Positions 768-26,207 of a DNA stretch of 64,000 nt are shown piece after piece. Each line of letters begins with the position of its first letter. Position 1 is the first letter of the stretch. The position numbers and the translations under genes are program-made. The stretch lies in NCBI RefSeq assembly GCF_019649055.1, contig NW_026570233.1, positions 1,488,001 through 1,552,000 on the forward strand. Direction: 5' to 3'. The notes beneath the pieces were generated by a model. It saw only the letters and a program-made list of their open reading frames with translations. It searched no databases and was not told the origin of the DNA. Source of the stretch: Paramacrobiotus metropolitanus (taxonomy: Eukaryota > Tardigrada > Eutardigrada > Parachela > Macrobiotidae).

Positions 768-1216
768 GAATTGCCGGGCACTCCATTAAGAAGCATTTGT
801 ACAAGACACATTTGTCTGCTCAAGAGGGTTAATTCAGTCGACAAATTTCCGGTTTTTTTGTACGTGAGGTTTCCTGTGAATGTCTGCACAAACGGTCTGC
901 ATATGTTTTTCAGCTGATCTTTATTGGAGATTATTTTGACGTAGAAAATGGGTGGAGAAGTAGATGAATGTATTTTGTTAGCGGATAAAATGGGATTTAA
1001 CGGAAATTAATTTCGTATCGATACCTGTTGTACAGTATTTGCTATATGGATAAGCACGTTCAGTTACGAAGCTAGTAAAGCATAAAACATTGTCAGTTAT
1101 GCACCATCATCTTTACCCCAGTAGCTCAAAAATGTTATCCAAAGTTTTTCTTTTTGACGTAACACAGGTACATATTACTGCTTTTCCTTTTAAATTTTTA
1201 AGTATTTCGTAGTACT

Positions 1217-1355
1217 TTTATTGCACACATTGTATCGATTCAAAAACAAAACCTGCAACATTTTCCTTTCCACCGCAGTAGTGTAGGCGCAAAACAATAA
1301 ACACCCGAGAACACAATTAATTTCTAATAAAGCGGAGAATAACTGGATATTTATT
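1217..1355 (-). terminator. Candidate poly(A) signals for sorbitol dehydrogenase
   Basis: On the minus strand an AATAAA overlaps the stop codon itself (1350-1355, stop TAA at 1351-1353), and another lies at 1217-1222. The distal one would give a ~130-nt 3' UTR that overlaps the 3' UTR of the convergent SLC7-type gene. Motif evidence only. Confidence 0.35.
1296..1331 (+). terminator. Candidate poly(A) signals for the SLC7-type gene
   Basis: Two AATAAA hexamers lie at 1296-1301 and 1326-1331, about 530-560 nt after the transporter stop codon. No earlier AATAAA was noticed in that 3' flank. If used, the transporter 3' UTR runs up to the end of the convergent sorbitol dehydrogenase gene. Inference from motif and position only. 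Confidence 0.45.
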
Positions 1356-4046
1356 GCTGGCGACTGCAATCAATCATGACCTTGATGCCGGCGCCGATGC
1401 GGGCCGTCTCAAAGGCTTCCAACGCCTGCTCCAGTGCGTAGCGGTGTGTTATCAAGGGCTTGACGTTAACACGGCCGGAGGCCACCATTTCCAGTGCTGT
1501 AGGGTAGCTGCAAAACAACAACAATAACAACCCGGTTAATTAACTTACTAGCCGCTAAACGGTAATTATAACAGCTTCATTATATTAACGGTTACCAGTT
1601 GAGATAGCGGAAAGACCCGCGAATGTCAACTTCGCGACATAGCGCATCCATTATCGGCAGCTTGTTCTCCAGGGTGCCCATACCGACAAGCACAACACAG
1701 CCGCCGGACTTAGTGGACTGCAGTTAGAAAATTTATGAGTTGGCTGGAAGGATAAGTCAGTCATAAAATATTTCAAAACACATCAATTAAATGCAAGGAA
1801 AAACGCTAAAAGCGGAAGGTTGATAACAACTACTGGCACTAAAAGAACTTCTATCAAGGTCAGTCATCCAGTAGAAATTAAATCTGGTCTATACCTGTAC
1901 ACGTGATATAATTTTACCCGTAAGACTTTTTTAATCTGAAAAACTGTGAATATCTCATTTGTCTGAATTTGGTTTCTTAGCAGAAATCTTTCAGATTCAA
2001 AAAAGAATAATTGTGCTTGTACAAATATGAATGCGCATGTTATGTTTTTACTGCATTTCGAATTTTTTTGGAAATTCCGATAATATACCTGTGAGCTAAC
2101 ACAAACTTTGTTTAGCTGTAACTGAAGAAATTATAAAACGGTATTTCTCCTTACATAAATGGCAAGCGCTTGACTGGTTTCGGCGCCGCTGCACTCAATA
2201 GCGCAGTCCGGCTGACGACCAAGACATTCGGCGACCAGTGCTGCTACAGCTTTGGGATCTTTGCCGGTTACGTTGATTGTGTGGTCAGCGCCCAGTTCTT
2301 TAGCAAATTTAAGGCGCTCTTCCGATACATCTGGAAAAGAAATGCGTTACTGGTGTGGTTAATGGACAAAAACATTTTTTTATGTACTCGTACCGGTAAT
2401 GACGACTTTTGAAGCACCCATTGCGCGGGCGGACAGCATGTTTACAAGGCCAATGGGACCTGAAAAATCAGTCTGTTATTATTTACTTGCGTATAGATAT
2501 AAGTGCATTCACAGACCATATTACAGTATAAGAAACAAAATTTATTGGCAAACTGATAGTTTAGAATACAACTAAGGACGTGTTCGAGTTTTGTAATCTT
2601 ATATAAAGCAAAAATTAGCATTAGCTCGAAAATACATATGCCCCACAACTATGGTTATTATTTACAGGAGCTATGCATATCGGTGGCTCTATCACGTGAT
2701 AAAAACATTTGTAGATCGTAGAGATGCTGGAAGCTTTACTGATAAATTATGGCATTAATTACCTGCACCGCAAACAAGTACATTGTAGCCGATTACAATT
2801 CCTGCTCGTCGGCAAGCGTGAACAGCGACGCTTAGCGGTTCACACAATGCGCCCTCTTCCAAAGAAACATGATCGGGAAGTCTACAGCAAAGACACTGTA
2901 ATTTGTTGGAACTGGAATTTCCTTGTTGGAGACTATTAACTGGGAAAAAAATACGAGATTTTAGATGGACGTACTTGTAGCAGAAATCCGCGTCATGAAC
3001 GTAATAGCGTGCGAGAGTGCCGTGCCAGGGCGGTGTGGCGCAGAAGGTGACATGCGAGCATAAATTGTAGCGGCCTTCTTTGTTGTAGTCACACCGCCGG
3101 CAGGGTACACCAGGCTCGATAGCCACACGGTCACCTGTATCATGTAAGTAGAACATATTAAACAAATACTCGTTAGTCGTTACTAGTGCATCTGATTATT
3201 TAAGCAACCATTATTACTTGGATCATAAATACTTTCACAAAATTGCAGCACAGAGCGAAAGAATGGAGTGATTGCGTTTACCTTTTTTCAAATGGGTAAC
3301 ACCTTCGCCGACAGCGGAAATAATACCGCTGGTTTCGTGTCCCAAGACCAGAGGGGCTGAAAAGGGGGAGCAAATAAAACCGACATGTTGAATAAATGGA
3401 AACGGTTTCTTTGTCATTCAGAAATCTTTGCACACGGACCTTTGACTACGTAATCCCCGATGTATCCGCGTTGCCTAGAAAAAAACTGAATCATAAAGTA
3501 ACCGCATACAGTTTTGGAAATCGCTTGCCAAATTATTTTACCAGCTGTTAAAGTACTACTAATAGCGGTAGACAATCAGCATATGAACGAATTTTTACGT
3601 GGCGAGTATTATACGACGTACCAAAAGTGGACATCAGAGCCACAGATTCCGACTTTTTGTATAGCAATCTGCACTTCTGAAATGCAAGTAAACAGTAAGA
3701 ATTCAGCCGGGGTCAATTTTGTCTTTCACACGTAATCCTTTTGATGTTTAAATAAATCAAAAGCCATTCTCTTTACTGACATATCGTAGATATTCCAACA
3801 TTGTTATTTTAAGGAATTTTTTTATGGAAGCTTACGATGGGGGCCTGGTTGGGGGATCGGCATCTCCTCCTAGAAACGTACAACGCTGCTGAGAAGAATT
3901 ACCCTTTATATTTCCTGATGAGCTTTTTTATACCCGATATATTTTCCTAATGAGATTTAGAGTATATTGCATCGGATACTTACCAAACGCAAATTTTTGA
4001 CAGACTGCAGCACTGCCGACAGATTGGTATCAGGTGAAGAAGGCAT
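1351..4046 (-). CDS. SORD: Sorbitol dehydrogenase (zinc-dependent polyol dehydrogenase), complete, 11 exons
   Basis: Exons, in + coordinates from the 3' end: 1351-1507, 1596-1717, 2155-2330, 2394-2459, 2763-2881, 2975-3134, 3282-3356, 3440-3474, 3622-3676, 3836-3869, 3984-4046. They sum to 1062 nt, giving 353 aa, close to the usual ~355. The enzyme oxidises sorbitol to fructose with NAD+ (polyol pathway, cytosol). Catalytic zinc ligands fall at C44 ([11 protein letters not shown]), H69/E70 (LVLGHE) and E155 ([11 protein letters not shown]), the numbering known for the mammalian enzyme. A GAGPIG Rossmann motif follows VLVC. C-terminal signatures are [18 protein letters not shown] and VKPLITHR. 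In the structural-zinc loop C99, C102 and C113 are present but the third position is N105, so that site looks incomplete. The start ATG (4044-4046) opens [22 protein letters not shown] long intron separates the IECSGAE exon from the next. Very sure of identity. Confidence 0.95.
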
Positions 4047-5405: not shown

Positions 5406-8045
5406 ATGGGGAATAATGTTTTCAGAAAGAACGCCGCTGTCGAAGTCATTGGCAGTAAAATGCGGTACAGCTACTCACAAGCGGAATTTATTGGCAAGGG
5501 AGCATTTGGTGTTATCCACAAAGCCAGAGTTGTAAAGCGGGCGGGCTTCACCGGAGCAGATGCGATAGCTGTCAAAGTTATACGTATCGCCGCTAATTCC
5601 GGAGTAATGACGAGCGAAGAAAGCTGGAAGAAAGTCGTGAGCAGATTGCGAAAGCTACGTGGACTACTGCACAAACATCTCGTTCTTTACCACAAAGTCA
5701 CCATAACCAGAGCGTCCGGCGGAGCCACAGTTGAGCTGGCAATGGATGTCTACGACTGTGAGCCAACGGCGATTTGTGACACTGACCGTTAATTTATTAA
5801 GCGTGTATTAAGGCTAAGGGTATACGGAACAAATTTCGTAAACATTTACGGAAACTCTTACTTTTTCGCACACTCCGAAGCACTTTCTTGCAGCGATCCG
5901 GTTGCGCGCACATACGGTGTTCAAGCCAATGTATGCAACTCATTCGGCTGTAGAATGATTTACAGAAGAACGCTGCAATAAAGCGTTTCGGATTGTGCGA
6001 AAGCGAAAGATCTGCTGGATATATAAGAAGCTTGTGCCGTGTGCCGGGTCCTGTCATTTTCCTTAACAGGCTTACATTTTTCCAGGCGACCTTGCCTCCT
6101 TTTTACGGGAGGCCAAGAAGAAAAACGTGCTAAGCGACGAAAAAGTTATTCGATTTGCCAAGAACATAACCAAAGGACTGCACTTCTTGCATCAGAATAA
6201 CATAATACATGGCGATTTAAAGCCAGAAAACATCCTGATGAGAATTTTCCCGAATAACCGGGAAAGGCTTTTGATCGGTGACCTAGACGATCTGGTGCAA
6301 ATGCAAGAGAGCGTCACTTGTTCCGGAGATATCTCGCAGCTGCGCGGTACGATACGTTACATGTCTCCGGAAATGCTAAAAAAATTTGCTCAAATGAAAA
6401 CCGAGGATCCTGGGCGAAAGACCGATATCTGGAGTCTGGGTTGTATGATTCTGGAGATGGCTGAGTGCTGCCAGCGCCTTGATCAAAGAAGATTGGTGAA
6501 CGAGAGAAAAATAATAGAGGTTGGAGATGATATACCGAATCATCGGTATGCCAACCTGATTATGGACGGATACGCGCCGTTTGTGAGCGACGTCATAGTG
6601 GAAGACCTTGCAAGGCTTATCGGACACTGCTTGCAACGCCGTAGCACGAACAGAATATCGGCAGAAGCCCTGTTGCGTAAATTGTGGAAGTATCAGGGCC
6701 TAGTATTTTTTTATACCGGTCGCATTCAAGAAGAATGTGGGATACCTCTTGTTGTATTCGATCCTTCGACTGGGTCCTTGCATACTCGGACTCTACCTTG
6801 CCCATCATCGACAACGGACAGCAAATTATTAAAGGGGTATTATTCTTCATATTGCATAGCGGCCACCGAAACCGAAGTAATAGTCGCGACCCGGATAATT
6901 CCTGACTGGGCTTCTCATTCTGAATCGCACTTCCAGCGTGTCGATGAAGAAACGGGGCGTGTTTTGCGCCCTTTACCTGATAGCCCAGTTTGCACAAGCG
7001 CTGTCGCTATAGAAGACAAGCTTTATTTCTGGGATTTAGGACATGAAAGATTCGTGGCAAAGGACGTCACTACTGGTAGCGATGTATCGTTGGAAACTCC
7101 CGGAAAAGGGTACGAGTACACAAAAGATTGCGTTCATTCGTTTAATTGCTTAGCAGTGAGTTAGCACCAGTCCAGTTGCGCGGACGCCCTGTAAAGCACA
7201 TAACCCTACCCCTACCTACCCTAGCATGAATCTTCACTTTCAGGTTTTCATCAGCTCAGATAGTGGGAATATTCGGTAAACGGATACTGTATGCCACACA
7301 TGACGAGTTATATTCGTACGATACCGTAAACAATAACTGGGCGTTCGTATGGAAATGGCCAATCAACCGACGCTGGAGTTATGCTGCGACGGTGGTAAAT
7401 GGATGCATATACGTTTTGGGTGGAAACATGCCACAGCTGCTACCTGACAACCATGGTCGCCCAACAGCAACCTGCTTTCGCTTGCAAATTGAAACGGCTA
7501 CGCGTGAAGAATTAGAGGCGCTGAAGCGGCCAAGATATGACCATGTCGCCCGTGTTATCAAGAACCGCATTTACATCTGCGGTGGCCGGCATTCCGCTTA
7601 CGAGTACGCCGCTACAATAGAGTTCTACGATATGAAACATAAAGCAGGATGGTCAGTCGTCAGTCTATCGGCAAGCGATCAGCAACTGCTGCCTTGGATA
7701 TCCGGATCTGCTTGTGAAAGGCTGGGAAATTGCTGGAATGTGGCTGCAATGTATGTTAATATAGATAGCGACGGTTCTACTGAACAAGATTCCGTCAGTA
7801 CTTCTATAGTGCGGCAGCAGTTGCTGCCTTGCGTTTCGGGGCATGTTCGTGAACGGCTGGAAGAGGACAGGAATATGGCTGCAATGTATGTGAGTATAGA
7901 CTGCGACGTTTCTGTAGAAAAAGATTCCATCAGTACAGACCAGCAGCTACATTGCGTATCGGGTCCTGGTTGTGAAAGGGTGGGAGAGGACAGGAATGTG
8001 GCCGCAGTGTATGTGAATATACCTAGACTGCGACGCTTCTGCTGA
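5406..8045 (+). CDS. Protein kinase-Kelch fusion protein with C-terminal tandem repeats
   Basis: Exons 5406-5757, 6086-7155 and 7260-8045 give 735 aa in one open frame. N-terminal kinase domain: Gly loop IGKGAFG (29-35), ATP lysine K57 (IAVKVI), catalytic loop HGDLKPEN (159-166, so non-RD: H-G-D), metal motif D183-L184-D185 in place of DFG, activation-loop end GTIRYMSPE (205-213), and DIWSLG (231-236). K, D161, N166 and D183 are kept, so activity is possible but the DFG glycine is lost. After the kinase domain come beta-propeller-like Kelch segments: KLYFWD, ELYSYD..NNW, GCIYVLGG and RIYICGG. From about residue 615 the protein is a run of near-identical 42-45-aa repeats (QQLLP..SG...ER...) ending at a frameshift. 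The exon 2/3 junction uses the acceptor at 7259; the nearby acceptor at 7243 breaks the frame. Probably a cytosolic signalling scaffold; partner unknown. Kinase and Kelch calls are firm, the exact C-terminus is not. Confidence 0.8.
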
Positions 8046-8205
8046 AAAAGATTCCATCCGTACACCGCAGCAGCAGCTGCTACCTTGCGTATCGAGACTT
8101 GGTTGTGAAAATTTGGTAATGTAAATGTCAGGAATGTGGTTGCAGTGTATGTTAATATAGACAGCGACGGTTTTACTGAAAAGTCTTCATCAGTTCGGAG
8201 CCTTT
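7680..8205 (+). repeat. Four ~126-135-bp tandem repeats at the 3' end of the kinase-Kelch gene
   Basis: Units begin with CAGCA(A/G)CTGCT-like sequence at about 7680, 7815, 7941 and 8071, each followed by TTGCGT/TGGATA..GG, GTGAA(C/A)GG, ATGTGGC and GTTAATATAGA. Unit lengths are 135, 126, 130 and about 130 bp. The first two units are in frame. The third carries an extra CCTA just after GTGAATATA (about 8020), which shifts the frame and produces the stop at 8043-8045. The fourth, more diverged unit therefore lies outside the reading frame. The reverse strand is open across the whole block for 222 codons, but I treat that as a by-product of the repeat. Confidence 0.85.
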
Positions 8206-8742: not shown

Positions 8743-9816
8743 CTATCTCATTACGTCGATCGCATTAGCTTCGCGCTGTTCATCTCTTACAAAGCAAACA
8801 AAAAACGCACGTAAATTCCCGATGCTGAGAATGAATAATAAGGGATCGCAGAGGCTTTGCATCGGGTACAGGTAGGTTTGCATTATTCCTAGTATGGCAA
8901 AACGGCTAGCTCCATTAGGGACAGTTTTCAATAAGGAGAAGTAGACCATACTAGGTATCCAGCAGATCGACGTGCTGACTGTGTACAGCGTAAGCAAAAC
9001 AAACGGTCTAGCTGCAGCAGCTTGTCGCTGTCTAGAATCTGCCCCCCTCTCCCATACCGCTCGCGACCGTCCCGCCATGCCACGGTTCCGGTGTTGCAAC
9101 CGCTTCCATAAAAGGACCGGATAGGTGAGAGGAATTAATAACTTCGGCACGCCAAAAACCCAGATTGCGGAAAACAGATACCACGCCCGTTGCGCATCCG
9201 TATTGGCCCAGCACGAGTTCGGTTTCCGATAATACACGGCGTCCATTAGCACTCCCGGTAATTGGACAATATGGAGGTAGAGCGTAATGCTGGCACACAC
9301 CCACCATGTCAGTTTTGCGATATGGTGCAATCGATACGACAGCGGCCAGAAAAGAGCCCACGCACGGTTAATGGTGATTAGTACGTGGAAATGTACCGTT
9401 ATCGCTACCAAAACGTTTTGACTGTACATCAACAGTGTACAGTACCGGTCATCAGCAGGCCAGAAGTTCTTGGGGACGATGACCGGTGCGCTAGTGGCGC
9501 AAAGGAAAATAATATTGCTTAAACGCATAACAATGATGTAGATGTTAAACGGCGCTCGGAGACTTTTAGTTTTCAGAAGAACTATCGTAACGGCAGTATT
9601 GAGGATCAGGGAGGCTACCGATACGCTGAAAAGAAATACCGGCCCACCGTCCGCGTTAGTGAAGGCCGCCGTCGTGTTAATACTCGGCGGCAGTGTATCC
9701 GCGCGTGACTCGTTTAGCAATAAAACGGTAATGATAACGGGAAGCATTATGGTTAACGTACTGAAGAAGCTTTGAGCATGGTTAAGAGTCGGATGCCAAA
9801 CGAAAACATCCAGCAA
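8743..9816 (-). CDS. Divergent rhodopsin-like (class A) GPCR, intronless, copy 1
   Basis: One open frame of 357 aa with seven hydrophobic helices and a short tail. Class A landmarks: N73 in TM1 (SLILNTAVTIVL), C126 at the top of TM3 pairing with C202 in extracellular loop 2 (KPNSCWAN), CWIP (285-288) in TM6 and DPLLF (324-328) as the NPxxY equivalent in TM7. The DRY motif at the end of TM3 is replaced by NRA (150-152), and TM2 has LSN where LxxxD is usual. Two N-glycosylation sequons (NES at 35, NTT at 47) lie in the N-terminus. A hydrophobic stretch at 20-34 could be a signal peptide, so the start might be M24 or another downstream Met. The ligand cannot be inferred. A paralogue with the same motifs lies at 14686-15717 and a broken copy lies between them, so this is a local tandem family. 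Confidence 0.88.
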   Translation of the reverse strand: MLDVFVWHPTLNHAQSFFSTLTIMLPVIITVLLLNESRADTLPPSINTTAAFTNADGGPVFLFSVSVASLILNTAVTIVLLKTKSLRAPFNIYIIVMRLSNIIFLCATSAPVIVPKNFWPADDRYCTLLMYSQNVLVAITVHFHVLITINRAWALFWPLSYRLHHIAKLTWWVCASITLYLHIVQLPGVLMDAVYYRKPNSCWANTDAQRAWYLFSAIWVFGVPKLLIPLTYPVLLWKRLQHRNRGMAGRSRAVWERGADSRQRQAAAARPFVLLTLYTVSTSICWIPSMVYFSLLKTVPNGASRFAILGIMQTYLYPMQSLCDPLLFILSIGNLRAFFVCFVRDEQREANAIDVMR

Positions 9817-10009
9817 AGGTCTCGCGCATCTTATAACAAATCAGACCAAACACTCCTACCAAACTTGCCCGTGGGGTGTAACTGTAGTACGAGGTGGCGG
9901 TGTATCAGAACGTTGAAACGCATCATTGCAGTTTACAGACACAGTTCATTTTATTTCAAACTTGTACAAGCAAATGCCCTTTAAAAACTTAGACTCAAGT
10001 AACCAAAAG

Positions 10010-11607: not shown

Positions 11608-12035
11608 CCACATTTGGTTCGTGCTGGCGGCCTCTCAAAAAGTGAACATAAAACGTCCGCAAATTCTCCATGCTGAGGAAAAATAGCAATGGATCGCACA
11701 GAGTTTGCATCGGGTACAGACAAAACTGCACTTGCCGTAGTGTTACCAGGTGGTTAAAACTAAAAACGCCAATTTCAATAAAGCTGTACTAGGCAACCAA
11801 CATACAAGGTAACCAACGTATAGACATGCTGACTGTATATAGTGTCAGCAAGACGAATGGTCGGGCTGCAGCTTGGCGGTGTCTTGTTTCCATCCCGTTA
11901 TTCCTTGCCGTTCGCGACCGTCCGGCTATACCACGGCTCCGGTGTTGCAGACGCTTCCATAAAAGTACCGGATATGCCACCCGAATTATACGTTTCGGGA
12001 CACCTAAAACGCAGATCGCAGAGAACAGGTACAGG
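11608..12035 (-). pseudogene. GPCR pseudogene, TM5-TM7 remnant of the same family
   Basis: Minus-strand sequence reads TM5 (IRVAYPVLLWKRLQHRSRG), loop 3 (ARNNGMETRHRQAAARPF), TM6 (VLLTLYTVSMSIRWLPCM), then TM7 and tail (YPMQTLCDPLLFFLSMENL, then FLRGRQ). These parallel the intact GPCRs at 8743-9816 and 14686-15717. The frame breaks between TM6 and TM7 (about 11760-11790). The CWxP motif has become RWLP, and nothing 5' of TM5 is attached. Upstream of about 12035 the similarity stops abruptly. A second relic with the 5' end of the same gene type lies at 13405-13695. Confidence 0.82.
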
Positions 12036-13120
12036 AAACGCAGGAAAAAGCTGTAAATGCTATTACAGTATAAATCGGAATAAAATAAGAACATAGCCAT
12101 CAAGCGAACGTCCCGGGGCTTGTTTCATATTAAAGGAAACCGAAAATAAAATTATACGATATGCCCATGGTCTGTAATTTAGGTACGAAACAGCAGTGTA
12201 ATAGGCTTTTATTCTAAGAAGGAAACCGTTACGGACAAATCTCTTACTCGATGTTATTGTAGGGATCCTTTGGCGCATCATGTTTATTATAGATACCCAT
12301 ATTAATAATATGATATTTATCTTAATTAATATCCATTTACTTGTTTTAACCACCGATAGCCAGATTAACCGAACTCCCAAAGCTGCAGTTCGAAAAGGTC
12401 ATATTTTCTGAGATACTCATTCTACATTAATTTGGTGAAGGCACTGCAGAAACGTTAGTTGCAAATACCGTGAGCGAAGGAAAAATGTCCGAAACGAAAA
12501 CGGTGACATGGAAAAAGGCGAATTTTAAGCCGAGTCCGAGACGTATGCCCCGAAGTTTCTTTTTCGGTCAGTTCTTAACTGGTTAACGCATTATTCCGCA
12601 TTCCGAGGTACAGCATATTACGAGAGAAGTATTCCGCTGCCGGGACAGTCGCAAAGCTTCTACCTGAATCTGGCTAACCAACCATTTAGCCAAAGCGGCT
12701 CCGCAGTCCAGCGGTAAATCCTTATGCAACATTCCGTATTGCGATAACAGTAGATCACTGCCTTGGTTAAACCCTCGCTTAACGGTCGATTCCAAATTTA
12801 ATTTTGCAAGCGCAGTACAAACTTATCTTGCCACAGTTAACTTAATAACTGCGCTTGTGCAGTTATATCTATTTGAGCTAGTACAGTCCCTGTGTGTAAA
12901 GCCTTTAGCAAGTATCGTCATGTAAGTACAAACTGAGTACTAAAAAAACGAGATTCATGACAAAAACACTTCTTCAATGCTATCCGGCTCGGGTATTGTA
13001 CCCATAACACATATCGCGTTTTCTCGTTGCATTTGGATAGGTAACCGCTGTCTGATATATCTCCCCCCTTTCTGGCCTGTGGCAGTGGCGATACCGTTTC
13101 TAACCTTTTACACTAGCTGC
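12036..13120. other. Sequence separating the two GPCR relics; no gene recognised
   Basis: About 1.1 kb between the TM5-TM7 remnant and the retroelement fragment. A 70-codon minus frame at 12583-12795 (ALAKWLVSQIQVEALRL) is not recognised and could be more of a mobile element. Otherwise AT-rich unique sequence. Confidence 0.3.
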
Positions 13121-14685: not shown

Positions 14686-15717
14686 TCAATGTCTTGTAAA
14701 GTCTACTGCATTTTCTTCGCGCTGACGACCTCTCAGAAAACGAACAATTAGGGCACGCAAATTCCCTATGCTAAGCAGAAACAGTATTGGATCACACAGA
14801 CTCTGCAGCGGTGACAGATAAAACTGCACCGCTCTTAAGGTGCCAAAGCGGCTAGCGCCATTAGCGACAGTTTTCAATAAGGAAAAGTAGATCGTACTAG
14901 GTATCCAACATACGGACGTGCTGACGGTGTACAGTGTCAGCAGAACAAACGCTCGAGGTGAAGCATGTCGGTGTCTTGTTTCCATCCCATTATTCCTTCC
15001 CGCGATGGCACGGTTTCGGTGCTTCAACCGCTTCCATAAAAGCACAGGATAGGTCACCTGAATCAATAACTTCGGCACGCCAAAAATCCAGACCGACGCA
15101 AAGAGGTACCACGCCGGTTGTGTATCCGTATTGGTCCAGCACGTGTTCGGCTTCCGATAATACACGTCGTCCATAATCACTCCTGGCAGTTGGACAGTAT
15201 GGATGTAGAGTATCATGATGGTGCACACCCACCATGTTAGTTTCGCCGTATGATGCAGGCGGTACGACAGCGGCCAGAAAAGAGCCCAAGCGCGATTAAC
15301 GGTGATCAGTACGTGGCAGTGGACGGTTATCGGTACTATTACGTTCTGATTGTACATCAGCAATGTACAGAGCCAGTTATGCAGAGGCCAGAAGCCGTTT
15401 AGAGGGGTGGTCAAGACCGGTATGGTGGAGATGACCAGGAAAATAATATTGCTCAGAAGCAGAATAAAGATGTAGATGGTAATCGGAGCCCGGAGACTTT
15501 TGGTTTTCAGGAGAAGCACCACAACGATACAATTGAAAATTATTGAAGCGACCGATGTGCTGAAAAGGAATACCGATCCGCTGTCTGTGTTCGTAGTGGT
15601 CGTCCTGTTATCGCTCGGTGGTAATGTTGCCGCGCTTGACATGTTAAGGATTTTAACGCTGTAGTTAACGGCAGACATGGTGTGTACAAAATTGTTCTTT
15701 AATTTCAGCCCAATCAA
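14686..15717 (-). CDS. Divergent rhodopsin-like (class A) GPCR, intronless, copy 2
   Basis: One open frame of 343 aa, clearly paralogous to the GPCR at 8743-9816 (shared LLKTKSLRAP, RAWALFWPLSYRLHH, YPVLLWKRL, FVLLTLYTVSTS, QSLCDP). Landmarks: C in WLCTLLMYNQNV at TM3, C in KPNTCWTN in loop 2, NRA replacing DRY, CWIP in TM6, DPILF for NPxxY, and LSN in TM2 in place of the usual Asp motif. The third intracellular loop is shorter than in copy 1. The N-terminus has NYS, NMS and NRT sequons. The start could be the first Met or the Met in TMSAVNYS, since no signal peptide is obvious. Likely a plasma-membrane receptor of unknown ligand. The shared non-canonical motifs mean they predate the duplication. 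Confidence 0.88.
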   Translation of the reverse strand: MIGLKLKNNFVHTMSAVNYSVKILNMSSAATLPPSDNRTTTTNTDSGSVFLFSTSVASIIFNCIVVVLLLKTKSLRAPITIYIFILLLSNIIFLVISTIPVLTTPLNGFWPLHNWLCTLLMYNQNVIVPITVHCHVLITVNRAWALFWPLSYRLHHTAKLTWWVCTIMILYIHTVQLPGVIMDDVYYRKPNTCWTNTDTQPAWYLFASVWIFGVPKLLIQVTYPVLLWKRLKHRNRAIAGRNNGMETRHRHASPRAFVLLTLYTVSTSVCWIPSTIYFSLLKTVANGASRFGTLRAVQFYLSPLQSLCDPILFLLSIGNLRALIVRFLRGRQREENAVDFTRH

Positions 15718-18700
15718 GATGCGTCGAACAATGCTTCGAACTGGAGTGCTATAGCTTATAGAAGATATAAGAACATCGAAAGGTCTGACTTACTTTCCAA
15801 TGAAATGAGGAGTAATTACAGAGCAAACATGCCCGTGGACTGCGGCTATAGTTGACGTACGAAGCGCTAGTGTAATTGTGCTGAATAATTAGAAGGGAGT
15901 CGCTGAGCGCGCACTTCACTTGTAATATAGTTTTGATATGATCTAATTATATGTTAACATGATATTCTATATTTACATGTTTTCACCGGTGCAGTCGAAT
16001 AGCCCGGTCAGTCGAATTGTGGAGCGGTAAAGACGAAGATCAAGCTGAAACCAGAGATGTATGTAATTACGCGTAACGTTTCGGTCTGGCTGTCAGCTTT
16101 CAACTGGCTAAAAATTTCTAAGCATTTTAATTGGTGTATATCTGCGCAAACGTATTGATCTGTGCGCTAGCTGTTGCTGAATAAAAATGTAAATAATATC
16201 GACTAATTGCAACCGGCAAAAAAAGACGTCCATTTGTTGTTGTCCATGTGCGAGAAACATTTCTGAGATTTTTTTAGCCATTACAACGTCTTTATCGTAG
16301 TAGAATTATCAAGGAACTGCAAGTCCGATGCCACCTCCAGCAAACGTTTTACAAATAGCAAAACAGTCCTCCTTTCGCTCCTGTTGACGACCCAACGTCG
16401 CAGGTCGTAAACAAACAGGTAAAACTCAAGTAGAAACACCATCCAGGTAAAAAAGGCATTTTATACCTTCTGGTCACAGTGAAAGATGCCCTGTCAAATA
16501 GCTGGGAAATGTTCGAGATGCGAAGTCATTTCATTATAGGCTGGAATGTCTACCGTCTGTATTATACCTTTGGTTTAGTTAAAATTACTGAGAATGTATT
16601 TGCATGTTCCTTTTCAGGCTCTTCTTATATGTATTTGCGTGTTCCTCGTATTAGACATGATTCCATCTTGCGCCATCTTATTCGGCACATTTTTTCGCTT
16701 ACAAGCGCACACTAGAAATGGCGCCGGAAAGTCTTGCGAACCAGCATCACTTTACGAATGCCAAATGTCGGCAGACTCTTGTTAGGGACTCCAGTGTAAG
16801 CTTATCCAGTTATCCTTGTTTTATGGTGCATCCACTTGTTTCAGTAGTAGTATTTGTACGTTACTCCAGCCGTATACTGTATTATTTGTATAACACTTTG
16901 GTGACCTTTGCAAAACTGTTCATAATGCACGTTGCAAAGCCATCGCGAGTGGATGGAAAGATGTTCCCGAGAACATAAAACAGATTTTGTACGCCAGATT
17001 AGCTGTAATTTGCAGTCCCTTTGGAATTAAAGATTATGCTACAGTTTTTATTATGCTACAGTTGTAATTCATCGACATGGTAAACATAATGTTGTATTAT
17101 TACCTTGCTATCCATGATAATATAACTTTAATAGCGAAGCGAAGCGTTTCGCATAGGTTTTTATTCGCCTACAAACTATGTACAGTATCTTAAAATTAAT
17201 GTTATCCGCCCTTAATTACAGAGTACCTGCCTGCCTACAGTGCCTAGTGTACCTATGGTGGATTATTTGCTAAAAGTTCGATATATCTATTTAACATATA
17301 CTCGTATTAGTAAAATGCTTTGTCAAAGAACAAAGGCAGTACCAGTTATTTCTAAATGAGAGCATCCCTTTTCCGGTGTACTCAACGGGTTTGTACTTTT
17401 TTAAGCTGTGCGTAGAAAATACACTGTTGCACATTGGAGGTGGGTGTGTGCCCTTTGCTGTGAGAGTTTGTCCGCTTCCAACCGATTCCTGTATCTCCAC
17501 AGACAAATTGGGTGTATTCGTCATAAACGGACTGCTGATCGCTTTTTTTGTTGGATATATGCACGGATTAACGCCAATAACCAGCGACGGGATCGTTACA
17601 CGCACGAAAGCCCACGGACGCTCCGCCCCTAAGCGCTTGGCAAGTAATTCAAAGCCCAAATGAATGGCCACGAGTGAGCGAGCGTGTATCACATGCCCAT
17701 AGTCTCCCTGTGTTTCCATTGCCACGCTCCTGTTTACACAGTCATCTCGCCGCGCCTGGTCGCGCACTGTGTGAGGGAAAGTAAATTTCTTATGGAGAGG
17801 TTTTTAAGTTGATGCCACATCCTTTGTCCAAGGGCTTAAGTTAACTGGTGCGCCACTCACGGTCTCTGGTTGCAGCGTGCGGCGGTGCATTATTCCCGGG
17901 GCCGGCGAATTGGCCCCATCCGGATCTGCAGACAAAACCCGGGTCTTTTTTGTCCGGTCCGCACCCTACAAACTTAAACAGCCCAACAGGATGCGGCCAA
18001 ACAGGGAAGCAGATGACGCTGCTTCCGGTTGTTGCGCAGTCAAACGCTGCACGCAGCGATCGATGATCAGTCAAAGTTGTGCGTTGTACAGCAAGCTACA
18101 CCTGCCTAATTTCTTGTACACTTTAAATATACCCACAACAACATGCACTCAATTTGTTCGCCACACCCATCGCAATAAAATCCCCCGACCACACACACGC
18201 GTGTGTGCATGTGTGGGCCATGCCGCAGTCATCAGTCCAAGGAGAGTAGTTTCCATTCAATTTAATTTTTACTGTTGCCGGCCTCACAGGAACATTTGAT
18301 CCCGCGTGAGTGGCTGGCAGTTGTGTGTGTGTATATGTTGTGGTCCAATCTAGCTTCTGGATTATGACTGCCATCCAGCTGCAGCAGTCAATGTGCGCGC
18401 TCTCTCCTTTCCCTTCTTATTCCTCTCTCGCGGTTGTGGGATCATGAGTAACTCTTCTGCCTATCTGGTGCGGGAGAGATGAGAAGGAAATTAATAGCAC
18501 ATCACTCCTGCTTGTCATATCCAACTCTGCTCCATATCACTCTATCCCCGGCCCGAACGCCGGTCCTGTGAACGCATGCCGTTCACTTTGCCACATACAC
18601 ACATACTCATACACAGTCGTCGCGCTGCTCTCCTCCATTCCACCGGAAACCGTTATGAACGGGTCAGAGGCCTGCCGAGTTTTTCTTGCACATTGGGCGC

Positions 18701-22000: not shown

Positions 22001-24364
22001 ACGACGTGTGTTATTTGTAAGTGTCTGGATAATTCCGCAGACCAGTTATTTTTCTATCAGAAATTGTCTATTCCCTGAATTATTTAATTTCGCGCGGCTC
22101 ACGTTGCTGATTTCGCCGGGCATTAGGAATACTGCAGAACAAAATATGTACCAATCGGAGATCAGTAGAAACGGTATCGTTAATTTTGAAACCAGAAGGC
22201 ACTAATCAGTTACAGTATTTTAACGATACATACCTACTAAATATAAAAATTTGACACTTTTAACGTATTATTTCTTACTAACGCTCGTATTACTTGTGAA
22301 TAAAAGTTCAACGAACGCGGAAAAATTAAACGTATGGGCTCAAGACCGAGCCGTTTAAGTCTACTGTAGCCGTCCATTAATATATATATAGTAGCATACT
22401 TTCACTTTAATGCCGACGCTAAATGCCAATGCACTACGTTGAAGCCACAATTTCCCCAGGCAAAGTCTGCGTTCTTTTTTTGCCACAGAAGTTACGCAGT
22501 TTTTTATTATGCAGTAACTAGTAAGTAATTTCTTCGTTCGAATTATATAATTTTACTTGCAGCACTCTTAGCAGGTTTTTATTGCAATTACAAGTACTGC
22601 AGTGACTAATGCTGTACTGTATAATACGCGGCTGGTACGTTAAATTGTAGTTTACTCCATGAGCAGACGACCATGTGCTCTTCGAGTCTTTTGAAAACTA
22701 TTATAATTATTACTTCACTGATCAGGTTAGTTTACTGTTTAATCGCAGGTAAAAAGAATCAAAAAACGTTGCTGACTGCTGTTCAGCGCGCATTGTAACG
22801 CTATAGGTATTCGTTTAGTAATGCGAGCTGGGGGAATTATTAATAAATAAACAGAGCCTACGCGCGTTTACCGCGGCAAGCGAATCACTGTTAATCTTAG
22901 TAAATTTGGCGTTGAACTGGTTAAAACTCAGAATCTCATGGTAGAAAATTCGTAAATAACATCGGTGTAAACCCTGCCACAGGAAAACGCAGATCGTAAA
23001 ATTATCCAAGCCAAAATATCCAAATCAAACTATTGGCAATGAATCATTACCAATAGTCCGATTGGCGATAATTTGCACATCATTACCAATGATGTCGTGA
23101 ATTGTTAATTTACTGCAGTGGAAAGGTATCTAGTTGGTTTTAAAACACGAAAAGATTGCCAACGGTCAGTAACAATACCCAAAAATTGCCCATGGTCAGT
23201 AACATCATTGCCAATAGTTTTTGGAGTTTTGGAGTTTTTTCATTTTTATTATTCATTTGTTGAAAGAATAAATCAACATATTAGAATAATGCGAATAAGC
23301 AAGCTGTTAACATGTTTAAATTTTATTGATAACAGTAAATGGTTTTGGTAAGCAGCATGCCGTTACGCGAGGGCGAAAAATTCGTTTAATATCGTCTGCG
23401 GAAAATGATCAGAACTATAAACCAATTTCTACTCTTCGTAGATGCCACAATTATCTCCATGCCTTCTCTTGTATCGGCGGCCGCCGTGACCTTTATCGGT
23501 ATGGTGACCAACATGCTCATCCGGGTGCGCAAAATCTGGGTCTTCATCACTGGCATCATCTACATCACCGCCGGTATCTGCACCTTTACCTGCCTCGTTC
23601 TCTACATCACCTACGTCGTACAGGAGCTCGAGCACAAACACGACGAGAAATCCGAAGACGGCGAGGACAGCTTCCAGCATTGGTACGGCTACTCCAGTAT
23701 CCTGGCCATGGTATCGTTCTGCTGCCAGGAGCTGGGCGGCATCAGTCTGGTGTACCTCAGTATCTTCCAGTTCAAAGCGCACTGGGATAAAAAAGAGCGC
23801 CAGGAGCAGGGTCGCCAACTGCAGCTCAACAATTACCCGTTTAATCGCAACCCGGACTACCGGTTCCCTGGGCAACCCGCCCGCTCGGCGTGTAATCACG
23901 TAGAAGCGCGGGGATGCTATTCCAGTCTGGACCAGATTGAGATGGTTCCTCTATACGAGCAACGGGCGTTTTATAACTCCCGGAATCCTTACGATACCTG
24001 CCTGGCGAATTGTTCCCCGAAACTCAGTCGGAAGAGCCTGACCGTGCCTGATCTGGATGTCCGCACGCGGGATGTGTACGTGGGGAATCACGTGGGGTGT
24101 TCCTATAATACGCCGTACTGCCCGTCGTACTATCCGCCGGACAAGCGGAAAGCGGCCGGTGGACAGAATCCGCGGTACGCGGCGCCCCCCGCCATGGGCC
24201 GGTTGCCGCGACAGGTGACCTTTTCCGATGAGGAACTAGACGCTGTGGAGCCACGGCAACGCTCGTTTGCTGCCGCGCAGTTCAACTTGCCCAACGCGAC
24301 CTATGCTCAGCCGAGGAGGCATCGGCCCTTACGGACGAGTAGTCTCCGGATGACGCCGGTGTAG
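19041..24364 (+). CDS. Stargazin/TARP-like voltage-dependent calcium channel gamma-family protein
   Basis: Exons 19041-19281, 21909-22016 and 23442-24364 give 423 aa in one open frame. Four membrane segments: TM1 (SSHVLNAASIICLATSMLT followed by NHWLL, cf. DYWLY in stargazin), TM2 (SMPSLVSAAAVTFIGMV), TM3 (KIWVFITGIIYITAGICTF) and TM4 (YGYSSILAMVSFCCQELGG). The first extracellular loop has NTT and NRT sequons and CFWIDHHIPDHTRL, matching the C..IDHFPED region of stargazin. The long cytosolic tail is rich in Arg, Tyr and Pro and ends RTSSLRMTPV; the last residues TPV form a class I PDZ ligand like the TTPV of vertebrate TARPs. Such proteins assist AMPA-type glutamate receptors or calcium channels at the plasma membrane. 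Intron 1 is 2.6 kb. M9 is an alternative start. The family is firm; TARP versus channel gamma role is inferred. Confidence 0.87.
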
Positions 24365-24975: not shown

Positions 24976-26207
24976 TCAGCCGTCTGGCAAAGATTTGATT
25001 ATGCCAAGCTGTGGATATCCGGAAAAATACAGCACCGGCACCGGGTAGGCAATATAGTGCTGTTGCCACTTGATCCACAACGGTTGTTTCGCTTCCGTTG
25101 TAGAGGACAATGGCGTCGCGTCGCGTGGCGGTGGCGATGCTGTCGTTGTAGGAATCGGTGGTGTTGGGTACGCAGCCCCTGGTTCGAAGCCAAACTGCAG
25201 AAACAGCATTACTGTAGCGACAAAGGTCACTAAGTCTAAGCGTTTACTGCTTACCCATTCGTTCAACGGGAATGTCGCATACATCGAATCAGTTAGTGCG
25301 GAAAATGCAGCCACTGGGTGAGCGTTACAATACGACTGGACACAATAACAGTCAAAGACCACGTCGGTGCTTCGCCGGCATAGATACGGTAAAGATGTTC
25401 CGATATCAGAAAGCGGGATGGGGCCATTAAGACAATCGCGAGTTACTTCGTTTCCTATAAATTAAGGTACAAGAACTGTGCGGGAACTTGTCTTCATTTC
25501 CAGCATTACAATTAGCAAATCAGTACAATACGAAGTATACATGTAATATGTATAAGGGATCATTGGTAAGTCTGTCTGGGTCTTTGTCTCATATCATTAT
25601 GCATACAAGCGGTAGAACCGAAATTCTTTACGCAAAAGCTAGTGTAGTCTGATGCTAGTCGTGTTCCCGTTTTGTAAGCCAGCCAAACAAACGGTTTCGG
25701 ACAAAGTCGCTTGTCTGCCATTTACTCCGTATTATCTGGATATCAGCCGATATTTTGGTGTAAATCGAAAAGCCCGCAGATCAGACGTACCAGATGCGTT
25801 GTAAGTGAGGGCACAAATCGCTGTTTCGCAAAACAGGGCTGCCGATGTCGGCAAACGCAGCAGGTCACCACAGCCCGCAGATGCTGCGCACCGGTAGCAG
25901 GTGTTCATGGCGCCGGTCACCCATTCCGTAAATTTTTCAGTGGCGTACCGCCGTGGAATGGTTGTGGTGCTGGTAATCGTTGTGGTTGTGGGCGTGGTAG
26001 TAGTCGTCGTTATGGTTGTGGGCGTGGTAGTAGTCGTCGTTGTGGTTGTGGGCGTGGTTGTAGTGGTCGTTGTTGTTGGGGTAGTTGTTGTTGTCGTAGT
26101 AGTTGGTGTTGTCGTCGTAGTGGTGGTAGCTGTAGTAGTAGTGGTGGTGGGGGTGGTGGTTGTTGGGACCGGTAGCGGGTCGCCGAAATCGAACTGCAAC
26201 GGAACTC
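24976..26207 (-). CDS. LU (Ly6/uPAR, three-finger) domain protein with Thr-rich stalk and membrane segment; 5' exon not found
   Basis: Two exons are supported: 25791 to about 26207 (or 26193), and 24976-25454, joined by a phase-1 intron (ASG|NEVTRDC). After FGDPLPVP there is a ~50-residue Thr/Pro tract, a mucin-like stalk. The LU domain follows: CYRCAASAGCGD, FCETAICALTYNASG, then EVTRDC, PYLCRR and the diagnostic C-terminal finger DCYCVQSYCN. Downstream is a hydrophobic segment LVTFVATVMLFLQFGF and a Pro/Thr-rich tail. LU proteins are usually secreted, GPI-anchored or membrane-anchored modulators of receptors and channels. No signal peptide is visible in these exons. An upstream start exon is needed, since the frame has no ATG before the Thr tract, and I could not place it with confidence. 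A paralogue lies immediately upstream at 26648-27424. Confidence 0.7.
25962..26166. repeat. ACC/GGT-type trinucleotide-rich tandem repeat coding for poly-Thr
   Basis: On the + strand a G/T-rich array with a recurring ~30-bp unit TTGTGGGCGTGGTAGTAGTCGTCG. On the minus strand it encodes the Thr-rich stalk of the LU protein (TTTTTTTTPTT runs). All three frames are open on both strands because of the composition. Likely length-variable. Confidence 0.85.

Follow-up and report, generated by a model that had tools for sequence, protein, structure and literature searches.

The 64,000-nucleotide stretch of the tardigrade Paramacrobiotus metropolitanus analyzed here (contig NW_026570233.1 of assembly GCF_019649055.1, positions 1,488,001 to 1,552,000 of the forward strand; hereinafter designated the window) contains, at positions 5406-8045, a gene for a 735-amino-acid (aa) protein in which a protein kinase domain continues, within one reading frame, into a Kelch propeller. 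Judged from sequence comparison within the genome, and going beyond an earlier sequence-only reading of the window, this gene is one copy of a very large family, whose kinase-Kelch members number at least about 59 and may exceed 100. The family combines a catalytic core altered at the αC helix, the catalytic loop and the DFG motif with a Kelch half that is less constrained than the kinase. We consider it fairly probable that most of its members are active kinases with a partner-selecting propeller.

The size of the family was estimated from the 169.8-Mb assembly (533 contigs; hereinafter designated G000). Scoring of 61 among 862 candidate places in a translated search with the window protein gave at least 86 matches, and these were merged by eye into 59 places beyond the window gene, corresponding to 58 loci (L001-L058; two places share L008). 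Another 20 loci (L059-L078), taken from the HGDLKPxN pattern places and from a search with a divergent member, were added because their similarity was low or their open frames were long, a non-random choice that favors HGD-type catalytic loops, and the sample used throughout thus comprises 79 loci: the window gene, 58 found by similarity and 20 hand-picked. With a divergent member as query, at least 116 matches were obtained (116 of 542 candidates scored). As a codon pattern, HGDLKPxN occurs 170 times in the genome and its reversed control never, and a GDLDDL-type pattern occurs 85 times compared with once in the control. The 79 loci take in only part of the 170 pattern places, so that about 59 is a lower bound for kinase-Kelch genes. 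A propeller-only profile, partly circular in that it was built from 18 of the 79 scored loci, places 59 of the 79 above the highest block-shuffled or reverse-strand control. L073 falls just below this limit and shows a propeller by eye; it stands outside the 59 and is treated as Kelch-bearing in the tree (60/79). Two loci on different contigs, L002 (C232) and L034 (C348), are near-identical, with three frameshifts in L034 in the profile alignment. They are perhaps an uncollapsed haplotype or an assembly duplicate, and copy counts may therefore be slightly high.

Kinase and Kelch propeller in one reading frame

The three exons of the window gene join into a stop-free frame across two introns, 5758-6085 and 7156-7259, both bounded by GT-AG. 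The proposal of the sequence-only reading that kinase and Kelch segments belong to one gene is borne out by Pfam matches to Pkinase (1.5e-33) and Kelch_1 (4e-11, in two stretches, the best at aa 565-600). The two introns it had drawn were recovered by a spliced aligner written in C for this analysis, a circular result where the window protein served as query and a partly circular one where the aligner was rerun with an 18-sequence family profile (17 paralogs plus the window) and returned identical introns. An alternative acceptor at 7254 would insert Ala-Gln; family length, compared by eye on the consensus, favors the acceptor at 7260. The possibility that the gene is a pseudogene was ruled out by a frame free of stops and frameshifts and by the kept catalytic residues.

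Kinase and Kelch share one reading frame across the family, and at the level of sequence this is no gene-model artefact, because the paralog L003 carries the kinase C-lobe and Kelch motifs in a single open exon (Pkinase 1.6e-23; Kelch_1 6.9e-15 in three stretches) and the window protein aligns with this frame unbroken over aa 117-648 (42% identity, 5.5e-106, no stop). Of the 58 Kelch loci covering profile columns 200-420, which run from the C-lobe through presumed blade 1 to blade 2 or 3, 46 have neither intron, frameshift nor stop in this span. The exon structure is likewise shared: a phase-1 intron follows approximately aa 117 in 41 of the 44 Kelch-bearing loci that cover this point, and 56 of 59 carry an intron within profile columns 430-500. 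The window intron at 7156-7259 falls inside presumed blade 4 and therefore separates no two domains.

Compared with the paralogs, the propeller-homologous half starts already in exon 2, at about position 6697. Blades 1-3 were read from the family consensus by position, length and strand pattern, with no database match, and a Pfam scan of exon 2 in 31 members detected no Kelch motif in 30 of them, the window gene included (31 rows hand-picked from 45 listed loci); the sole match is L003, whose exon extends into later blades. The propeller is probably six-bladed, and six blades remain a reading because of this lack of exon-2 Kelch motifs. The closest solved structures by sequence are designed Kelch propellers, followed by Keap1, KLHL12 and KLHL22, and neither BTB nor BACK is present among the 14 Pfam families matching the window protein at E up to 1.

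The final ~94 aa of the window protein, beyond what the sequence-only reading had described, consist of repeats of the C-terminal propeller segment and form no propeller. Repeat copies begin at 7683, 7818, 7941 and 8074 (spacing 135, 123 and 133) and are 67-88% alike in the compared stretches. Three of them are in frame, each with a presumed closing strand (NVAAMYVNI, NMAAMYVSI and NVAAVYVNI), and the fourth lies beyond the stop at 8045. From the last aligned column to the stop, counted inclusively, the window gene has 94 residues compared with at most 52 in the other loci aligned to column 600 or beyond, among which L025, L030 and L058 ended before a stop for lack of sequence. At most one copy would close the ring, the remainder being probably a product of slippage. 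At the other end, the window protein starts with MGNNVF and lacks a Ser at position 6; eight of the 49 loci with a covered N-terminus have a candidate MG start with Ser at this position (e.g. MGNQVS or MGNTVS), which we take to resemble an N-myristoylation signal, and some family members are perhaps N-myristoylated.

An atypical catalytic core

The Pkinase match spans the whole fold (aa 23-318 on profile positions 1-262 of 263). As the sequence-only reading had noted, the window kinase has a non-RD catalytic loop, HGDLKPEN, and reads DLD in place of DFG, with the ATP-binding Lys, the catalytic Asp and the Asn all present. A third change was found in addition: Arg80 occupies the position of the αC Glu. 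The window kinase thus keeps the β3 Lys, the catalytic Asp, the Asn and the Mg-binding Asp, whereas a pseudokinase is recognized by loss of the Lys, the catalytic Asp or the Mg-binding Asp.

The same combination recurs throughout the sample. The ATP-binding Lys is present in all 58 loci covering it (an earlier 58-locus alignment read 41/42, with Arg in L042), the HxD Asp in 78/78, the catalytic-loop Asn in 76/78 and the DFG Asp in 77/79. The four residues occur together in 55 of the 58 readable loci, including L053, L060, L061, L063 and L068, all of them early branches of the tree as drawn; the exceptions, from the earlier 58-locus alignment, are L032, L013 and L052. By contrast, the regulatory positions have changed in nearly every copy sampled. 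The middle residue of HxD is Gly in 75 of 78 loci (Ala in two, Ser in one), a share biased upward because some of the hand-picked loci were chosen through the HGD pattern. The DFG Phe is replaced by Leu in 74/79 and the DFG Gly by Asp in 75/79 (Gly in two, Phe in one, Glu in one). At the αC Glu position, which was assigned from one locally gap-free alignment with MAP3K2 (two other alignments are gapped nearby), 51 of the 57 covered loci have Arg, four have Lys, one Ser and one Gly, and none has Glu. The window gene being one of many copies, the "altered regulation" proposed for it characterizes a whole clade rather than a single gene. In the data seen here, the pair HGD and DLD appears to mark the family.

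Exon 2 matches Pkinase in 31/31 members, with weaker matches to PF17667, a fungal kinase family, in 24/31 and to Kdo in 8/31. Kinases of the PF17667, Kdo and APH types often have D-x-D where others have DFG. Among solved structures, the exon-2 profile, which covers the C-lobe, is nearest to MAP3K5 (ASK1; E 7.3e-21), followed by CDKL3, TTK, MNK1 and NEK7. We do not place the family in the MAP3K5 group because many other kinases score close behind; MAP3K5-type kinases, unlike the window family, keep HRD, DFG and the αC Glu.

Prokaryotes and viruses were searched with the family kinase profile and with patterns including HGDLKPxN, which partly selects for HGD. The prokaryote kinases are 24-39% identical (best 80 of 413 relatives) and the viral ones 27-37% (seven loci). 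Among the best 80 of the 413, 57 have HGD (54 with DxG, three other), ten have HRD (all ten with DxG) and 13 yielded no motif. DxD occurs neither in these 80 nor in the seven viral loci (six DxG, one other). A bacterial or viral origin was rejected on the basis of this low identity and the lack of DxD among the relatives compared.

Module swaps and unequal divergence

Twenty of the 79 loci lack a propeller signal above controls, and several loci contain stops or frameshifts. Some carry other modules in its place. In L072 (G000:C150:132600-135700, positions 1184-2515, minus strand), one open frame holds Pkinase (5.8e-24) and HSP70 (3.3e-31); its sister L055 (G000:C132:236900-239500; tree support 100) is HSP70-like by eye and has a stop. 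Two kinase stretches in one frame were detected by Pfam in L050, L052, L069 and L070, and the second kinase of L069 and L070 looks degenerate by eye, with GGIFPEN for GDLKPEN. A second kinase N-lobe is visible by eye in L032, L042 ends in a hydrophobic stretch, and several non-propeller loci stop shortly past the kinase.

In a tree of the 79 kinase domains (IQ-TREE in quick mode, drawn from the midpoint, with weak support on 30 of 76 inner branches), Kelch-bearing members occur in the early branches L053, L063, L060/L061 and L067/L068, and are absent from L066/L075 and the HSP70 pair. Kelch presence requires 12 changes on this tree compared with 17.2 when shuffled (1 of 500 shufflings as low). 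On a tree that is only midpoint-drawn, the simplest reading would be an ancestral kinase-Kelch gene, followed by repeated loss and a few replacements.

The two halves evolve at different rates. Ratios of nonsynonymous to synonymous divergence (dN/dS) were computed for 95 non-independent pairs with dS below 1.5 in both domains, one of which was dropped for near-zero dS. In the remaining 94, kinases have a median of 0.22 and propellers one of 0.45, and in 89 pairs the propeller value is the larger. Over 1423 pairs, mean identity amounts to 0.51 between kinases and 0.34 between propellers, the propellers being the less similar half in 1419. These values indicate that the kinase is the more constrained of the two halves. 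At L006/L007 (G000:C220), the kinases are near-identical (dS 0.025) and the propellers more diverged (dS 0.24), which suggests gene conversion or module exchange between copies.

Within the propeller, change is greatest, in a young clade (L002, L012, L013, L014 and L016), on the presumed ligand face, taken to be formed by the BC and DA loops as in Keap1-type structures. In this clade, dN is 0.30 for these top loops, 0.10 for strands, 0.11 for bottom loops and 0.075 for the kinase, and two pairs with little shared history, L002-L016 and L012-L013, give 0.30, 0.10, 0.11 and 0.06, respectively. Variable columns make up 67/102 of the top loops, 63/168 of the strands and 13/33 of the bottom loops (Fisher's test with columns taken as independent: top against rest, p 5.7e-6; top against bottom loops, 0.014). 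Top-loop dN exceeds strand dN in seven of eight other pairs. The ratios are uneven among these eight: top-loop dN/dS is 0.11 in L010-L011, 0.30 in L006-L007 and 0.34 in L005-L024, and of the remaining five pairs, three give 0.54-0.95, and the two with saturated dS give 0.31 or no defined value. The loop register is backed by PDB alignments for the later blades only.

Table 1. Features of the kinase-Kelch gene, in window coordinates
Feature	Positions	Strand	Basis
Whole coding gene: kinase, Kelch propeller and repeated tail, 735 aa	5406-8045	+	translation, Pfam, spliced alignment
Exon 1: N-terminus (MGNNVF..), G-loop, ATP Lys, αC	5406-5757	+	translation
Exon 2: kinase C-lobe, linker, presumed blades 1-3 and start of blade 4	6086-7155	+	blades by eye
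Exon 3: larger part of blade 4, blades 5 and 6, presumed closing strand, tail repeats and stop codon	7260-8045	+	
Protein kinase domain, aa 23-318	5472-6687, split by intron 5758-6085	+	Pfam Pkinase 1.5e-33
ATP-binding Lys57 (AVK), kept	5574-5576	+	
Arg80 at the αC Glu position, non-canonical	5643-5645	+	MAP3K2 alignment
Catalytic loop HGDLKPEN, non-RD	6208-6231	+	
DLDD replacing DFG	6280-6291	+	
GTIRYMSPE, end of activation segment, APE-type	6346-6372	+	
Kelch propeller overall	6697-7763	+	blades assigned by hand on family consensus; Pfam from about aa 485, blades 4-6
Blade 1, strands B-D	6697-6810	+	by hand
Blade 2	6823-6984	+	by hand
Blade 3	6985-7128	+	by hand
Blade 4, intron inside	7129-7370	+	by hand
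Blade 5	7371-7529	+	by hand
Blade 6	7530-7730	+	by hand
Presumed closing strand	7731-7763	+	by hand
About four copies of the C-terminal segment with the presumed closing strand	7683-8190	+	end 8190 by eye

Other features of the window lie on both sides of the gene. Two frames of rhodopsin-type seven-transmembrane (7TM) receptors, at 8743-9840 (7tm_1, 2.4e-16) and 14689-15789 (4.5e-20), both on the minus strand, are also Srx-like and intronless in the matched part, and a fragment at 11789-12124 on the same strand, seen by eye only, may represent a third such receptor. An alcohol-dehydrogenase-type fragment (ADH_N, 5.8e-8) lies at 2755-3195 on the minus strand and a Claudin/PMP22-like open frame (Claudin_2, 3.3e-8) at 23390-24361 on the plus strand. 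Positions 25959-26163, where open frames of both strands overlap, hold an array of simple repeats with TGGTTG-like units and units of 30 bases.

Proposed function and comparison with known systems

The product would be a Ser/Thr-type protein kinase with a C-terminal Kelch propeller, presumably intracellular. Such a kinase could be active without the usual switches: with the HRD Arg gone, a phosphate on the activation loop would be unneeded, and pairing of the αC Arg with the new acidic residues of DLDD may substitute for the missing Lys-Glu bridge. The top face of the propeller would bind a partner or substrate and carry it to the kinase, and each copy would then combine recognition and phosphorylation in one self-contained protein of distinct specificity. 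We regard the propeller as very likely a partner-recognition module and the kinase as likely to be catalytically active; that both hold at once is a somewhat weaker expectation, which we still favor. A large and fast-diversifying repertoire fits changing partners, as in immune, stress or self/non-self signaling, better than housekeeping, and an immune-type role in particular is conceivable, though we would not presume it.

The sequence-only reading had left the choice between an active kinase and a scaffold. Activity, predicted here from sequence, is favored because the four catalytic residues are kept in 55/58 loci, early-splitting ones among them, and because the kinase is more constrained than the propeller. 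The rival is a dead or very weak nucleotide-binding scaffold, in which the kinase fold serves as an ATP switch and the propeller does the binding work. It gains from the replacement of the αC Glu by Arg or Lys (55/57) and of the DFG Gly by Asp, from L013, an intact Kelch member that reads GLD and lacks the DFG Asp, from L052, which lacks the catalytic-loop Asn, and from the top PDB phmmer match of the kinase, CASK, often termed a pseudokinase. The third residue-losing locus, L032, lacks the αC Arg, the DFG Asp and the Asn but also bears an in-frame stop and does not speak for the rival. We consider this rival unlikely, though it is the strongest of those weighed.

Substrate recognition by the propeller, as the sequence-only reading had suggested, agrees with the fast presumed ligand-face loops of the young clade, but the pattern is not seen in every close pair. 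The family could also be a neutral by-product of duplication under relaxed constraint, its propeller varying through loss of function with no repertoire role. This would accommodate the 20 loci without a propeller signal, the loci with stops or frameshifts, and the propeller dN/dS nearing 1 in the young clade. However, the top loops of that same clade show approximately three times as much amino-acid change as its strands and bottom loops, the median propeller dN/dS lies well under 1, and 24 of the 33 loci covered over columns 20-585 have neither frameshift nor stop, making a neutral by-product improbable. The joining of two neighboring genes, a kinase and a Kelch gene, in a wrong gene model draws on the intron at 7156-7259 and on Pfam Kelch motifs that score in the window only in exon 3, and is rejected for the family, at the level of sequence, as highly implausible in view of the single L003 exon, the unbroken alignment with it and the uninterrupted columns 200-420.

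Several observations weigh against active kinases with a partner-choosing propeller. The loss of the αC Glu and of the DFG Gly could mean weak or absent catalysis, and L013 has lost the DFG Asp despite being otherwise intact. Exon 2 is without Kelch motifs in nearly all members scanned, and single-sequence AF2 models reach a pLDDT of 35 for exon 3 and 41 for exon 2, too low for use. The window gene is in none of the 60 listed of the 95 dN/dS pairs, and these figures accordingly describe paralogs. Strands and loops were drawn by hand on the consensus, and the ligand face was assigned by the rule for Keap1-type structures. In L010-L011 the top loops are no faster than the strands (dN 0.096 compared with 0.099), and this pair, L006-L007 and L005-L024 have low top-loop ratios. 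Finally, dS in the young clade is 0.11 for propeller strands compared with 0.32 for the kinase; because regional dS differs in this way, its ratios near 1 may partly reflect low dS or gene conversion. The pattern therefore points to fast change on the presumed ligand face and falls short of proof of positive selection.

The usual animal kinome comprises some hundreds of kinases. If the reading of active kinases with partner-choosing propellers is true, one animal genome holds a kinase clade equal to a sizeable fraction of it, and almost all copies seen have other residues at three classic regulatory positions. The family probes how far a protein kinase may leave the canonical core and still work, and it supplies natural variants for the charge-swap hypothesis of the αC Arg and DLDD.

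The Kelch propeller of BTB-Kelch adaptors (KLHL/Keap1) is a partner-recognition disc, and the window family shares with them a propeller that matches Keap1, KLHL12 and KLHL22 in the PDB. By contrast, the window protein lacks BTB and BACK, and its other half is a kinase and no Cullin-3 adaptor. The PPKL phosphatases of Plasmodium likewise combine Kelch with a phospho-signaling enzyme, but the enzyme is a phosphatase and the Kelch part is N-terminal. Queries for kinase-Kelch wording, with and without "tardigrade", found no paper in the open-access literature, a scope that leaves out most subscription journals and bioRxiv preprints. The word Kelch is absent from the main text of the Dictyostelium kinome paper (PMC1420674) and from that of a tardigrade comparative genome paper, where 27 kinase clusters are described among families restricted to the two tardigrades compared (PMC5531438).

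The Entamoeba Src kinases EhSrc and EiSrc are described as carrying KELCH domains in which a propeller was not identifiable by modelling (PMC5648430). Like the window family, they carry a protein kinase and Kelch motifs on the same chain; unlike it, they are amoebozoan and Src-like, and the description, on which alone the comparison is made, includes neither an HGD/DLD core nor a large family. The kinase-Kelch fusion as such thus has an Entamoeba precedent, and what is new here is how large the family is, its atypical core and the exchange of modules. A second parallel is provided by wheat kinase fusions such as Sr43, which combine a kinase with various domains, typically a second, non-functional kinase, the integrated domain being proposed to define the partner and the kinase to signal (PMC10260397). 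The window family resembles these fusions and tandem kinases in joining a kinase to varied modules: Kelch in 59/79 loci, HSP70 in L072, and a second kinase in L050, L052, L069 and L070. The wheat proteins differ in being from a plant, in having a disease-resistance role known genetically and, as far as their description goes, in lacking Kelch and HSP70. It is a speculative proposal, and one we would not expect to hold as a whole, that an animal lineage has acquired a repertoire of at least 100 recognition kinases, each a single chain, as an independently evolved counterpart of plant kinase-fusion immune receptors. They would form a clade of rewired active site (αC Arg, HGD and DLDD) whose conserved kinase is paired with a diversifying Kelch disc and occasionally with HSP70 or a decoy-like second kinase. 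If the proposal is true, the module swaps between Kelch, HSP70 and a second kinase, together with the variable binding face, would offer a testable animal parallel to these plant receptors.

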